From NCBI GenBank assembly GCA_003222535.1, contig QHWJ01000235.1, positions 1 to 64,000 of the forward strand: a stretch of 64,000 nucleotides of DNA, given 5' to 3'. Of this stretch, positions 28,226-52,807 are shown in pieces (position 1 is the stretch's first letter; each line of letters begins with the position of its first letter). The translations under genes were made by a program, and so were the position numbers. Source of the DNA: Acidobacteriota bacterium. GTDB taxonomy: Bacteria; Acidobacteriota; Vicinamibacteria; Vicinamibacterales; CAVVIG01. The notes under the pieces were generated by a model. That model did no database searches. It had not been told where the DNA came from and saw nothing but the letters and a program-made list of their open reading frames with translations.

Positions 28226-29379
28226 GAATCGTGCGGCTGGCGGGACAAGCTCTGGTGGAACGCTAGCCTGAAACTTTCGAACCGCCCGAACACTATAGCG
28301 TCTCTAATCCGTCGCAGTGTGTCAAGGTAAAAGTTGAGGTTATGCAACGTGTTAAGGGTGGAGGCGCTCATTTCGCCTGCCAGAAAGAGGTGCCGCAAAT
28401 ACGCCCGCGAACAGGTCGCGCACGTGTGGCAGTGACACGCGGGATCGGGAGGCCGGTCGTCCTCCGCGTACCGGGCGTTCTTGATGTTGATGCGACCGTC
28501 GCTCGTGAACAGCTGGCCGTTTCGCGCGTTGCGCGTCGGCAGGACGCAATCGAAGAGATCGATGCCGTGGGCGACCGAGTCGACGAGGTCCGCCGGCGTG
28601 CCGGTGCCCATCAGGTATCGAGGCCGATCCTCCGGCAAACACCGCGCCGTCCGGGACACCATCTCGTACATCACGTCCATCGGCTCGCCGACGCTCAAGC
28701 CACCAATTGCATACGCCTCGAAGCCGACCTCGACCGTCCGGCGCGCGCTTTCCTCGCGCAGCGCCGGGTACACGCCGCCCTGCACGATGCCGAACTGCGC
28801 CTGTCCGGGATTGCTCACCGCCACGCCGGGCACCAGCCCATCGCGAAGCGCGAGAAAACGATCGCGCGCTCGACACGCCCACCGGAGCGTCCGCTCCATC
28901 GAATGGCGCGCCGTCGCTTCGTCTGCCGGATGCGAGAGGCATTCGTCGAGCACCATCGCGATGTCCGATCCGAGCTGCGCCTGCATGTCGGCCGCCTTTT
29001 CCGGTGTCAGCGTGTGCGCCGAACCGTCGAGATGCGACCGAAAATGCGCGCCGTGCTCGTCGACCGTGCGGCGGGCCGCGAGGCTGAACACCTGATACCC
29101 GCCGCTGTCGGTGAGGATCGGCCTCGGCCAGCCCATGAAGCGATGGAGGCCGCCGCGTCGGGCAATCAGATCGTCCCCGGGCCGAAGCGAGAGGTGGTAG
29201 GTGTTGCAGAGCAGGATCTCCGCGCCGAGCGATTCGAGATCGCGATGCGTGACGCCCTTCACCGCGCCTTGCGTGGCAACCGGCATGAACGCCGGCGTGT
29301 CGACGACACCGTGGGGCGTGGTGATCCGGCCGCGCCGCGCGCGTCCGTCCGTGTGTGTCACCTGAAAGTCGAAGGACAC
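28222..29379 (-). CDS. tgt: tRNA-guanine transglycosylase
   Basis: DSGGYQVFSL; GIVQGGVYPALREES; zinc motif CHCHTC; GTG start. Confidence 0.96.
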   Translation of the reverse strand: MSFDFQVTHTDGRARRGRITTPHGVVDTPAFMPVATQGAVKGVTHRDLESLGAEILLCNTYHLSLRPGDDLIARRGGLHRFMGWPRPILTDSGGYQVFSLAARRTVDEHGAHFRSHLDGSAHTLTPEKAADMQAQLGSDIAMVLDECLSHPADEATARHSMERTLRWACRARDRFLALRDGLVPGVAVSNPGQAQFGIVQGGVYPALREESARRTVEVGFEAYAIGGLSVGEPMDVMYEMVSRTARCLPEDRPRYLMGTGTPADLVDSVAHGIDLFDCVLPTRNARNGQLFTSDGRINIKNARYAEDDRPPDPACHCHTCATCSRAYLRHLFLAGEMSASTLNTLHNLNFYLDTLRRIRDAIVFGRFESFRLAFHQSLSRQPHDS

Positions 29380-29395
29380 GTGCTAAGTTTAGCCT
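29380..29395. promoter_or_regulatory. Candidate compact bidirectional promoter between tgt and ddl
   Basis: 16-bp start-to-start gap containing GCTAA-gt-TTAGC; -10-like boxes end 7 nt from each GTG. Confidence 0.5.
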
Positions 29396-30547
29396 GTGGA
29401 AAAACTCCGGGTCGGCATCGTCTACGGAGGACGGTCCGGGGAGCACGAGGTGTCGCTCGCCTCGGCCGCGGCGGTCTTTCAGCATCTCGATCCCGCGCGG
29501 TACGAGGCGGTCGCGATCCGGATCGAGAAGGACGGCCGATGGGCGTTGCCGGACCGACCGCCGGCGTTGATGGCAGCGGCCGACGTGATTCAGGCCGCGC
29601 GCGCTTCGGACAGCCCTGGCGGCGGGGCTGAGCCGGGCGTCACGCGGGAAGCGCACCTCGTCGCGCATCCCGGCAGCGAGACGCTCCTCACCATCGATCG
29701 CCACGCTCCGCAGCCGGTGGTCGCCGGTCTCGCGCTCGACGTCGTGTTCCCCGTGCTGCATGGTCCGTACGGCGAGGACGGCACCGTCCAGGGGCTGCTC
29801 GAGCTGGCGAACGTGCCCTACGTGGGCGCGGGCGTGCTCGCGTCCGCCGTCGGCATGGACAAGGCCGTGATGAAGCTCGTCTTCGCCGCGAACAGGCTGC
29901 CCATCTGCGACTACGAGGTGGTGCTGAAGCGCGACTGGCAGCGCGACGAGCGCGCGATTCTGCAGAAGGTCGTCAATCGCCTCGGCTTCCCCGTCTTCGT
30001 GAAGCCGGCCAACCTCGGGTCGAGCGTCGGCATCTCGAAAGCGAAGCACGTCGCGGAGCTGCGCGCCGCCATCAAGCTCGCCGCGGAGTTCGATCGCAAG
30101 ATCGTCATCGAGGCCGCCGTGTCTCAGGCGCGCGAGATCGAAGTCGCCGTCCTCGGCAACGACGAGCCCGAGGCGTCGGTCCCGGGCGAGATCATCACGT
30201 CGCGCGAGTTCTACGACTACGAAGCGAAGTACATCAGCGACGATTCGCGCACGCTGATTCCGGCGCCGCTCGACGACGCCCAGGCCGCCGGCGTGCGCGC
30301 ATTGGCAATCGCCGCGTTCAAGGCGATCGATGGCGCCGGGATGGCACGCGTCGACTTCCTCCTCGCAGGCGACAGCCAGGTTCTGTACCTCAACGAAGTG
30401 AACACGATCCCCGGGTTCACGACGATCAGCATGTACTCGAAGATGTGGGCGGCAAGCGGCCTGCCGTATGCGCGCCTGCTCGATCGCCTGATCGCGCTCG
30501 CGCTCGAGCGTCACCGAGAGAAACAGCAGCTGCGCACGAGCCTCTGA
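29396..30547 (+). CDS. ddl: D-alanine--D-alanine ligase
   Basis: YGGRSGEHEVSLASA; VKPANLGSSVGISK; YLNEVNTIPGFT; GTG start. Confidence 0.96.
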   Translation: MEKLRVGIVYGGRSGEHEVSLASAAAVFQHLDPARYEAVAIRIEKDGRWALPDRPPALMAAADVIQAARASDSPGGGAEPGVTREAHLVAHPGSETLLTIDRHAPQPVVAGLALDVVFPVLHGPYGEDGTVQGLLELANVPYVGAGVLASAVGMDKAVMKLVFAANRLPICDYEVVLKRDWQRDERAILQKVVNRLGFPVFVKPANLGSSVGISKAKHVAELRAAIKLAAEFDRKIVIEAAVSQAREIEVAVLGNDEPEASVPGEIITSREFYDYEAKYISDDSRTLIPAPLDDAQAAGVRALAIAAFKAIDGAGMARVDFLLAGDSQVLYLNEVNTIPGFTTISMYSKMWAASGLPYARLLDRLIALALERHREKQQLRTSL

Positions 30548-30727
30548 CGACATCAGCCGGCCATCATCGGGTGCCGGTCGCCGGACTCACCTCTCCGGTC
30601 ATCTCACGCTCGGTCGCGCGCGATCGCGATCCGCGCGAGCCGATCGGTCGGCGGCGCAAGCTTCTCGCTGCGTTCTTGCGCGCGTTGCGCGGACGAAAGA
30701 TTTTTTGACATTTTGTGAACATTGTGC

Positions 30728-30757
30728 TTGACACTCTGTCGTTACGGTTCATAATCT
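30728..30757 (+). promoter_or_regulatory. Strong sigma70-like promoter
   Basis: TTGACA - 17/18 bp - ATAATC/TAATCT. Confidence 0.7.
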
Positions 30758-30763
30758 ACATCT

Positions 30764-30945
30764 GGTATGAGGATGGTGACATGAGGCCATCCCTAGTGAA
30801 GCTCGATGCGTCGAGCCTCACCTTCCGCCTCGGCGGAGGTTACCCGAAGCGACGGGCGCCGACATCGGGTGAGCGTGCCAGGCGGCAGCCACGGGTGATG
30901 GGCATGAGCGCTCGCGCAGTCTCAATCCCAACATGAAGGGGGGGA
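30764..30945 (+). ncRNA. Candidate structured leader RNA or small RNA (family unknown)
   Basis: Between the promoter and a Lys-rich micro-ORF; successive hairpins GGATGG..CCATCC, GCTCGAtgcgTCGAGC, CCGCCtcGGCGG, CCCGaagcgaCGGG. Confidence 0.4.
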
Positions 30946-30954
30946 TAACAGACA

Positions 30955-31005
30955 ATGGCGAAGAAAGCCAAGGGCGGGAAGAAGAAGGCCGGCAAGAAAC
31001 GATAA
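30955..31005 (+). CDS. 16-aa lysine-rich micro-protein MAKKAKGGKKKAGKKR
   Basis: ATG with purine-rich SD (aaggggggga) 8-10 nt upstream; followed by a terminator; below the ORF-track cutoff. Confidence 0.6.
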   Translation: MAKKAKGGKKKAGKKR

Positions 31006-31024
31006 GCTGACCTCTCCCGTCGAT

Positions 31025-31050
31025 AAAGGGGGCGGCCGTCGCCCCCTTTT
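31025..31050 (+). terminator. Rho-independent terminator
   Basis: aaagggggcg-gccgt-cgcccccttttcc. Confidence 0.85.
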
Positions 31051-31074
31051 CCATTTTCCGAGGTCGGCCGCCCT

Positions 31075-33228
31075 CTATCGACTCGTTATTTCCTGTCCGT
31101 CCCAGATCCTCACCCGCCGAATCACATCCCACTGCTGAATCTGATCGACGACATCCATTCCGGCGATGACGCGGCCGAAGACCGTGTATCTCGCGTCGAG
31201 ATGCGGCTGCGGCGAGTGCACGATGAAGTACTGGCTGCCGCCGGTGTCGGGCCACGGATCGAGCGCCATGCCCACGGTCCCGCGCAGGTACGCCCGCTCG
31301 TTGAGCTCGTCGCGGATCGTGTAGCCGGGCGCGCCTTCGCCGTCGCCGCGCGGGTCGCCGTCCTGAATCACGAAGTCGGGGACAACGCGATGAACGCTGA
31401 GGCCGTTGAAATAGCCCTTGCGCGCCAGCGTGACGAAATTCTCGACCGTCAACGGCGCGTCGACCACCGCCAGCTCGACTTGAATCGTGCCGCGGTCGGT
31501 CTCGATGTACGCCTGCGTCGACACGGAAGGGTTCACCAGACGCGCGGCTGCATACGCGTCGGGCGCCATGGTCGTCGGCGCGGGCCGAATCTGGATGTCG
31601 GCGGCGGCGGCGGCGGCCGGGTCGAGCTGTTTCAACAGCATCGCCGCGCGGACGCGGACCGCCCAGTCCTTGTCGGCGAACGCGCTCCGGAGCACCGGCG
31701 TCGCGACCGCGGCGCCGTAGCTGGCGATGGCCGCCAGCGCCGCCGCGCGCGCCGCATAGGTCGAATCGCGCAGGCCGAACCGGTAGGCGTCCTCGAGCGC
31801 CTGCGCGCCGCCGGACGGTTTCAGATCGCCGAGGCCGGTGGCCGCCGCCGCGCGCACCACCGGATCGTCGGCCTTCAGACGCTCGATGAGGATCGCCGCG
31901 GCATCGGGCGCCTTCAGCTTCACGAGCGAGGCCAGTGCGAACGGGATCACCCGCTGGTCGGCGTCCTGGAGCATCGCGTCGAGCCGCGGCCGCCCGGCCT
32001 CCGGCGTGAGCGTGGCGAGGATGGTGGCGAGCGCCGCGCGGACGCTCCAGTGGGAATCGGGATCGAGGCCGGACAGCACCGTGACGAAGTTCTCCGGATC
32101 GAACGCGGCCAGCGACCCGAGCGCGGCCGCGCGGATGGGCGGACTCGGATCGGCGAGCACGTCGAGCAGCGCGTCGGACACGGCGGGGACGTGCACGCCT
32201 CCGACGGCGCGGACCGCCTCGAGGCGGACGTGCGGATCGGCGGCGGCGTCGCGGATGATCCTTACCAGCGGCTCGGCGGCTGACGGATCGCCGATCCTCC
32301 CGAGCGCTCGAACCGTCTCGATGAGCACCGCGCGCTCTCCGCTCGACAAGAGCGGCATCAACACCGGCAGCGCGGATCGATCTTTCAGCGCGGCGAGCCC
32401 TTTGACGGCGAACGCCCGCGTGTACGGATGCGCGTCCTTCGCGAGCGTCAGCAGCGCGGGCAGCGCGCGTCGGTCTTCGAGCCGCTGGAGCGCGAACGCG
32501 ACCGGCCACCACCGCACGCGCGGTTGACCGTTCGGGTCGAGCACCGCGGAGGCGAGCTGCGGGTAGGCCTTGAGCCGGACGAGGGCGTAGAGGCCCAGGC
32601 GGCAGGCCGCCGCCGGCGTGTCCCGCCGCGCCTCGTCCTGCTCCGCCGGCGTCTCGGCCAGGGCGCCCGACTGCACGATCCGGGCGGTGAAGCTCCCGAT
32701 CGCATCGGCGGCCGCCGCGTCACCGATGAGTCCCAGCGCTTCGGCGGCGCTGCCCTGCACGAGCGGCGATGGATCGGCGAGCGCCCCAACGAGCGGATCG
32801 CGCGCCGTCTTGTCGCCGACCAGCCCGAGCGCGAACGCGGCCATCTGTCGCACTTCGGGATCGGCGTCGGTGAGCAGCCTGACAAGCGGCGGCACGCCTT
32901 CGGCCAGCGCCACGCGCCCGATCGCGAGCGCCGCGCGCCGGCGGACGCGCGCTTCTTCATCCGACAGCAGTCGCACCAGATCGGGCGGCGGTTGGGGCTC
33001 GGCCAACGCCGGCGGTGGCTGCCCGCGTGCCGCCATGGGTGGATTCGGCGCCACTTCCGGCGCCGAATCGCGCAGCACCCGCTGATCTTCGAGGCGGAGA
33101 ATCCACCCCATCTTCTGCTCGAAGCTGGGCCCGGCCGGTCTGGCCGGCGGCGGCGGCGCCGGCGGCGCGCTGGCGCAGGCCGAAGCAGCGAGAGTGAGCA
33201 CGAGCGCAAACGACGTTCGCATCAGCAC
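31075..33228 (-). CDS. HEAT-repeat protein with C-terminal cyclophilin-type peptidyl-prolyl isomerase domain, predicted lipoprotein
   Basis: LTLAASACAS lipobox; many HEAT-like repeats; C-term VHRVVPDFVIQDGDPRGDGEGAPGYTIRDE..GTVGMALDPWPDTGGSQYFI. Confidence 0.9.
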   Translation of the reverse strand: MLMRTSFALVLTLAASACASAPPAPPPPARPAGPSFEQKMGWILRLEDQRVLRDSAPEVAPNPPMAARGQPPPALAEPQPPPDLVRLLSDEEARVRRRAALAIGRVALAEGVPPLVRLLTDADPEVRQMAAFALGLVGDKTARDPLVGALADPSPLVQGSAAEALGLIGDAAAADAIGSFTARIVQSGALAETPAEQDEARRDTPAAACRLGLYALVRLKAYPQLASAVLDPNGQPRVRWWPVAFALQRLEDRRALPALLTLAKDAHPYTRAFAVKGLAALKDRSALPVLMPLLSSGERAVLIETVRALGRIGDPSAAEPLVRIIRDAAADPHVRLEAVRAVGGVHVPAVSDALLDVLADPSPPIRAAALGSLAAFDPENFVTVLSGLDPDSHWSVRAALATILATLTPEAGRPRLDAMLQDADQRVIPFALASLVKLKAPDAAAILIERLKADDPVVRAAAATGLGDLKPSGGAQALEDAYRFGLRDSTYAARAAALAAIASYGAAVATPVLRSAFADKDWAVRVRAAMLLKQLDPAAAAAADIQIRPAPTTMAPDAYAAARLVNPSVSTQAYIETDRGTIQVELAVVDAPLTVENFVTLARKGYFNGLSVHRVVPDFVIQDGDPRGDGEGAPGYTIRDELNERAYLRGTVGMALDPWPDTGGSQYFIVHSPQPHLDARYTVFGRVIAGMDVVDQIQQWDVIRRVRIWDGQEITSR

Positions 33229-51076: not shown

Positions 51077-52783
<1,707 letters not shown>

Positions 52784-52807
52784 AATATCCCACTATAGTC
52801 GATCGGC

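Follow-up and report, generated by a model that had tools for sequence, protein, structure and literature searches.

A putative lysine/alanine-rich microprotein gene with its own promoter and structured leader, conserved between ddl and a peptidyl-prolyl isomerase gene in the Vicinamibacterales

The window analysed here is a stretch of 64,000 nucleotides from an Acidobacteriota bacterium of the order Vicinamibacterales (contig QHWJ01000235.1, positions 1 to 64,000). Positions 30728-31050 comprise a free-standing transcription unit formed by a promoter, a structured leader of about 190 nt, a Shine-Dalgarno sequence (SD), a micro-ORF and a terminator. Upstream lies ddl (D-Ala-D-Ala ligase), on the same strand and ending at 30547, and downstream a HEAT-repeat/peptidyl-prolyl isomerase (PPIase) gene, convergent on the minus strand and ending at 31075, both names being our own reading of the sequences. 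With a convergent gene next in line, the promoter serves the micro-ORF alone, and the claim of an earlier note on this DNA that no longer gene depends on it holds, none following on the same strand. This gene order also contradicts the reading as a leader peptide or attenuator of a downstream gene: a short ORF followed by a terminator has that layout, but both in the window and in the relatives the next gene is convergent and there is no same-strand gene to control, which leaves this reading with a negligible probability. The elements of the unit are the following:

30705-30727, plus strand: upstream promoter element, with a TTGAC-like box at 30705-30709 and TTGTGC abutting the -35 box
30728-30755, plus strand: core promoter TTGACA-16-CATAAT, followed by the conserved CTACATCTGGTATGAGG
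30771-30776 / 30787-30792, plus strand: leader hairpin P1, GGATGG/CCATCC, in both the minimum free energy (MFE) and the centroid structure
30796-30821, plus strand: leader hairpin GUGAAGCUCGA/UCGAGCCUCAC, MFE and centroid; by eye similar to the GTGAGGT..ACCTC hairpin of family relatives
30822-30839, plus strand: leader hairpin CUUCCGC/GCGGAGG, MFE and centroid
30849-30917, plus strand: module 2, with an outer helix (30849-30859/30908-30917, bulged A30852) and an inner hairpin (30869-30892, UGCC-AGGC-GGCA)
30925-30946, plus strand: AUCCC (30925-30929) paired with GGGAU of the SD (30942-30946) in the window MFE
30936-30946, plus strand: Shine-Dalgarno sequence AAGGGGGGGAT of the ORF2 type, with GAAGGGGGGGAT nearly invariant among relatives
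30955-31005, plus strand: micro-ORF MAKKAKGGKKKAGKKR, 16 aa, TAA stop
31025-31049, bidirectional: intrinsic terminator T2, 11-bp stem with a T-tract

The -35 box (TTGACA, 30728-30733) and the -10 box (CATAAT, 30750-30755) give 11 of 12 matches with a spacer of 16, or of 17 if the latter is read as ATAATC, so that the TTGACA-17/18-ATAATC promoter of the earlier note is present. No other promoter-like site lies within positions 29000-33000, where shuffles yield 0.2. Among 122 distinct units the per-base identity was 98-100% in TTGACA and 96-100% in TAATCTACAT (like the other conservation figures, partly conditioned on the features by which the relatives were searched for and which were later counted). 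Conservation extends beyond the two hexamers, to TTTGTGC abutting the -35 box (89-99% per base) and to CTACATCT(G/T)GTATGA past the -10 box, and a second TTGAC-like box was identified 24-25 bp 5' of the -35 box in 108-109 of these units. The promoter spacer of other families contains a conserved TTCTCATCC, which the window has lost. The second TTGAC-like box, TTTGTGC and the spacer TTCTCATCC suggest a dedicated DNA-binding regulator. At the other end, the strong terminator that had been claimed is the 11-bp stem with T-tract at 31025-31049, which is bidirectional because of the A-flank beside the T-tract and can therefore serve both convergent genes. In 57 of 119 units, compared with 4.5% of control stretches, a GTAC motif (often TTGTACG) was identified at most 14 nt past the T-run of the terminator; it occurs for example in the tails of loci L031, L034 and L050 and is absent from the window.

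A 381-bp region was matched in all 27 searched genomes of the window's family (f1) and in 53 of 60 relatives overall, with E values reaching 9e-91, and the locus is orthologous in the 27 genomes of f1. The promoter pattern TTGACNN{13,20}TAATCTACATNTNG was found in exactly one copy per genome in 114 of 162 Vicinamibacterales genomes and in none of 31 genomes of other orders of the same class (0/31), and the reversed-pattern control gave 0 matches. Among 84,980 species genomes there were 86 matches, with titles such as Vicinamibacterales, Luteitalea and Acidobacteria gp6 MAGs and including some evidently mislabelled MAGs. Two matches in Solobacterium were attributed to chance, no micro-ORF being present there. 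In nearly all fetched loci the unit is flanked by ddl and the PPIase gene, tgt being the neighbour of ddl, and this synteny indicates a vertically inherited single-copy locus. Conservation of the unit is far above chance; the earlier note had taken a lack of conservation of promoter, hairpins and ORF in relatives as evidence against the unit, and the opposite was found for the three of them. On this comparative basis the unit is a never-annotated microgene held at one chromosomal spot across the order Vicinamibacterales, often in two tandem copies, although it is not universal and some genera are without it.

The architecture in most families is promoter, leader 1, ORF1 (SD AAGGAGGA), terminator T1, module 2, ORF2 (SD GAAGGGGGGGAT) and terminator T2. 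Both ORFs were identified in 61 of the 122 units, ORF2 alone in 38 and ORF1 alone in 21. Terminator-like structures follow ORF2 in 94 of 102 cases and ORF1 in 58 of 81, compared with 6.5% of shuffled tails. The window is of the ORF2-only type, while two members of its family (L026 and L056) retain both ORFs. Family f8 retained ORF1 alone, enlarged to 35-65 aa, and in other genera of f8 ddl and the PPIase gene are adjacent with nothing recognisable between them, a clean loss which indicates that the unit is dispensable in several of these genera. That some lineages retain ORF1 alone and others ORF2 alone suggests that the two copies are functionally equivalent.

The 16-codon Lys-rich ORF and its SD were identified as the earlier note described them, except that the peptide has 8 Lys and 1 Arg instead of 9 Lys. 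Most relatives in f1 encode the same peptide, and its ten nucleotide variants present 103 pairwise differences at third positions and 0 at positions 1 or 2; since these variants differ only silently, the ORF is under strong purifying selection at the protein level. The 122 distinct units yield 186 micro-ORFs of 14-65 codons (median 17), with a composition of 49% Lys and 28% Ala; all 186 begin with MAK and 168 finish with KKR. Their length varies in frame by AAKK- and GGKK-like units, changes typical of a low-complexity polycation. Identical peptides are encoded by both copies in 17 of 63 two-ORF pairs despite several silent differences, and the mean ORF1-ORF2 distance is 0.152 within a genome vs 0.321 across genomes (0 of 1000 permutations as low), a difference to which genome relatedness contributes. 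This likeness indicates concerted evolution of the copies at the amino-acid level. In the two-ORF units L061, L068 and L248 the paired peptides are identical or nearly so with silently different codons, and the peptide changes between genomes.

These data bear on the reading of the unit as a regulatory small RNA, with a terminator-proximal ORF that is incidental or merely gives a dual function. The strong leader structure and promoter, the lack of a coding gene downstream on the strand and the conserved non-coding helices are compatible with it, but the substitutions are silent only, the SD is always present, the ORFs of variable length are always in frame and mostly end in KKR, and paralogues encode the same peptide with other codons. 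A regulatory RNA is thus very unlikely, and the regulatory RNA of the earlier note, if taken as purely non-coding, is contradicted by the substitution pattern. A cationic antimicrobial or secreted peptide, which the Lys/Ala composition recalls by its resemblance to synthetic cationic peptides, is even more improbable given the low hydrophobicity, the vertically inherited single-copy locus and the absence of a signal sequence, transporter and immunity genes. A type I toxin, that is a short hydrophobic membrane-spanning peptide, was rejected, as the window peptide consists of M, A, K, G and R only and has no hydrophobic stretch. Also rejected was a 73-aa ORF running across the leader (30715-30936): in nearly all relatives of the family the three frames of the leader are interrupted by stops, and the leader length varies freely.

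The leader of the window (30763-30957) is more stable than 199 of 200 shuffles (z -2.9), and z is -3.7 when the ORF and the terminator are included. The succession of hairpins over about 190 nt that had been noticed is present in the predicted structures. Module 2 is formed by an outer helix of 10 bp, from which one A bulges, and an inner hairpin, and the same helices were obtained with RNAalifold. In 21 family sequences including the window 93.5% of its cells are paired, against 24-57% when slid, and its covariation score was reached by 0 of 500 shuffles. In the window the single-sequence MFE structure is more stable than this one by about 6 kcal/mol, so that other conformations may be adopted there. 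The pairing of AUCCC with the SD is weak, only two C-G pairs being present in the family consensus. A pairing of the 5'-end UGGUAUG with CGUGCCA, present in the window MFE, was set aside: by eye, its third base varies between families (G/T) with an unchanged partner. SD2 could pair by sequence with the 3' arm of T2, a possibility that does not discriminate between lineages.

Leader 1 was compared in 68 sequences. It comprises P1 (GGGUGG/CCACC(U/C)) and a loop, GCUCAGC, pairing with GCUGAGC 20-26 nt 5' of the ORF1 start, which together form a compact H-type pseudoknot just upstream of SD1. In P1 and the pseudoknot 90.0% of the cells are paired, against 29-47% with the partners slid; six pairs change on both sides, and 0 of 500 shuffles match the covariation score. 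RNAalifold, which is blind to pseudoknots, gave no nested consensus structure for the ORF1-type leaders; for leader 1 only the test of the named pseudoknot was informative. The P1 of the window (GGAUGG/CCAUCC) is the equivalent of GGGTGG/CCACCC in the relatives; in the window's family P1 was kept and the pseudoknot partner is gone together with ORF1, and regulation may consequently differ in f1. Covariation upstream of the micro-ORFs, which the earlier note had proposed as a check, is thus supported for both elements, and together with the protein-level selection on the ORF it favours the leader-controlled micro-protein among the options of that note.

The unpaired residues GUAUGA and U-GU-GUGA are near-invariant in the 68 leaders, a hint of a bound ligand or protein. 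With the compact pseudoknot next to SD1 they are what would be expected if the leader were an aptamer that senses a small ligand or an ion (a riboswitch, e.g. for a polyamine or Mg2+) instead of an autoregulatory or structural mRNA leader. Such an aptamer appears unlikely, as the element is attached to one gene only, has no Rfam match and has lost half of the pseudoknot in the window's family, and as the leaders of the sister orders differ in appearance. Rfam scans of the window unit, both gathering and permissive, gave no gathering-level match (best E 0.33, for the terminator hairpin alone), and those of ten relatives gave no match; the failure of the earlier note to recognise a known riboswitch is hence confirmed. 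The sole gathering-level Rfam match in the window is a TPP riboswitch aptamer (RF00059) at 52690-52787 on the minus strand, with 70.4 bits for a gathering threshold of 54.3.

In ribosomal-protein leaders a pseudoknot or helical element adjoins the SD of a gene whose product is small and basic, and serves autoregulation. The unit resembles them in layout only, having a structured covarying element by the SD (the pseudoknot for ORF1, module 2 for ORF2) and a small basic product; unlike them it presents no Rfam r-protein leader match, and its product is not a ribosomal protein. The product could instead be a ribosome- or RNA-associated accessory peptide, such as bTHX or the basic tails of r-proteins, with feedback of the r-protein style and no role as a nucleoid protein. 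Its very small size and strong basicity and the position of the pseudoknot by the SD agree with this reading, which we nevertheless regard as rather unlikely, considering that no r-protein gene is nearby, that the long forms match no r-protein model and that not every genome of the order has the unit. The same phylum has structured RNA motifs described by Weinberg, among them Acido-1 (RF01686) and Acido-Lenti-1 (RF01687), listed as non-coding and not as cis-regulatory (PMC2864571). Both belong to Rfam, and neither matched the window or the ten relatives.

No Rfam, Pfam or NCBIfam family fits the unit, and nothing relevant was found in the literature on Lys-rich acidobacterial small proteins. 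The histone H1-like Hc2 models (PF07382/NF038052) were compared with the long orthologues only, the 16-aa peptide of the window being below the 20-residue limit of the scan; the best scores, 21.5 bits in Pfam and 19.4 bits in NCBIfam, lie far under the cut-offs of 40 and 135 bits. The 65-aa and 52-aa orthologues gave HC2 E values of 3e-4 to 1.5e-3, below the cut-off, and Hc2 together with the Burkholderia H1-like model (NF038053) gave weak values of about 3e-4 to 0.1 for the long forms. The Lys/Ala-rich low complexity of the Hc2 type is present in the 186 ORFs. Like Hc2, the Burkholderia proteins and the KPAA-repeat domains of AlgP and PhaF, the product is presumably an unstructured polycation rich in Lys and Ala (with Pro in the long forms). 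It differs from H1-like proteins in being a microprotein of 14-65 aa without a globular N-terminal domain, with its own structured leader and often with tandem copies and an internal terminator. Proteins of the AlgP/PhaF type have a helical N-terminal domain of about 120 aa that precedes a KPAA-repeat tail (PMC9239181); the domain is absent from these ORFs, which have 14-65 aa in total. The Lys/Ala/Pro tail of AlgP binds DNA, organises polyphosphate granules and is needed for granule spacing (PMC9239181), a precedent for the possible action of such a polycation.

Our preferred reading, which we consider likely, is that of a translated, cis-regulated, Lys/Ala-rich microprotein that binds polyanions like a free-standing tail of the histone H1 type. 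Judging from composition, the product is probably a minimal nucleic-acid-binding protein, and the nucleic-acid-binding peptide suggested by the earlier note is compatible with the abundance of Lys and Ala and with the H1-like longer orthologues, the binding itself being what we infer from them. The single-copy chromosomal gene would encode a Lys/Ala/Gly microprotein of 14-65 aa across the order and of 16 aa in the window. The dedicated strong promoter is expected to transcribe the microgene alone, and the RNA to end at the shared bidirectional terminator. The expected binding partner of the peptide, as an unstructured polycation, is DNA, RNA or another polyanion. Cis control of its expression probably acts at translation: where both genes are present, the pseudoknot ends about 8-12 nt 5' of SD1; ORF2 (the copy of the window) has its folded module about 20 nt 5' of the G-rich SD; and the internal terminator that separates the two copies is expected to limit ORF2. 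In the window's family the loss of ORF1, its terminator and the pseudoknot partner would have fused the 5' hairpin to the ORF2 module. The signal for this regulation is possibly the peptide itself.

The comparative case is unusually strong, comprising the promoter, one locus per genome, silent substitutions, covarying leaders, same-peptide paralogues and lineage-specific copy loss, for genes of a size (14-20 codons) that standard annotation skips. Both leaders are new candidate cis-regulatory RNAs, and if the products bind nucleic acid or polyphosphate they would be among the smallest families of bacterial chromosome- or RNA-associated proteins, in a phylum that dominates in soil and is poorly understood. 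As a tentative extension, the Acidobacteriota might have a phylum-wide unannotated class of free-standing, tail-only polycationic microproteins acting as dose-controlled counter-ions of nucleic acid or polyphosphate, and the pseudoknot leader, internal terminator and second folded leader of the two-gene form might together be an RNA device of a new kind, autoregulatory and controlling the dose of both near-identical peptides.

An SD of the ORF2 type followed by a Lys-rich ORF was also identified outside the Vicinamibacterales. A general pattern for MAAKKK/MPAKKK...KKKK ORFs of 14-21 aa was found in 12 of 396 genomes of the phylum. In the sister orders (f17 and f18) MAAKKK-type ORFs with the SD GAAAGGGGGGAT lie in the tgt/ddl-PPIase neighbourhood, and f17 has a related promoter ending in GTATG. 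In other classes (f26, f41, f62, f89 and f93) Lys-rich ORFs are located elsewhere, in most cases together with a TTGACA-like promoter and a terminator of their own; these may be homologous or convergent, low-complexity peptides being unable to discriminate between the two. The relatives in other orders and classes combine an SD, a terminator and a KKK-rich ORF. Since Lys-rich microgenes occur beyond the order, strict order-specificity applies only to this promoter and leader. Three loci of f41 (L335, L336 and L337) have a different, strongly conserved and foldable-looking leader (UUAUGCCAAGA..GCGCGACCG.GAGGUCCCGUACGGCAUGAAAGG) before MAAKKK micro-ORFs. In one genome of a sister order (G083, locus L312) the same SD precedes a longer Lys-rich ORF, MPAKKKLTKTQKKKVVKKLAKTKKGRK..., about 470 nt 3' of ddl, which runs past the end of the fetched stretch.
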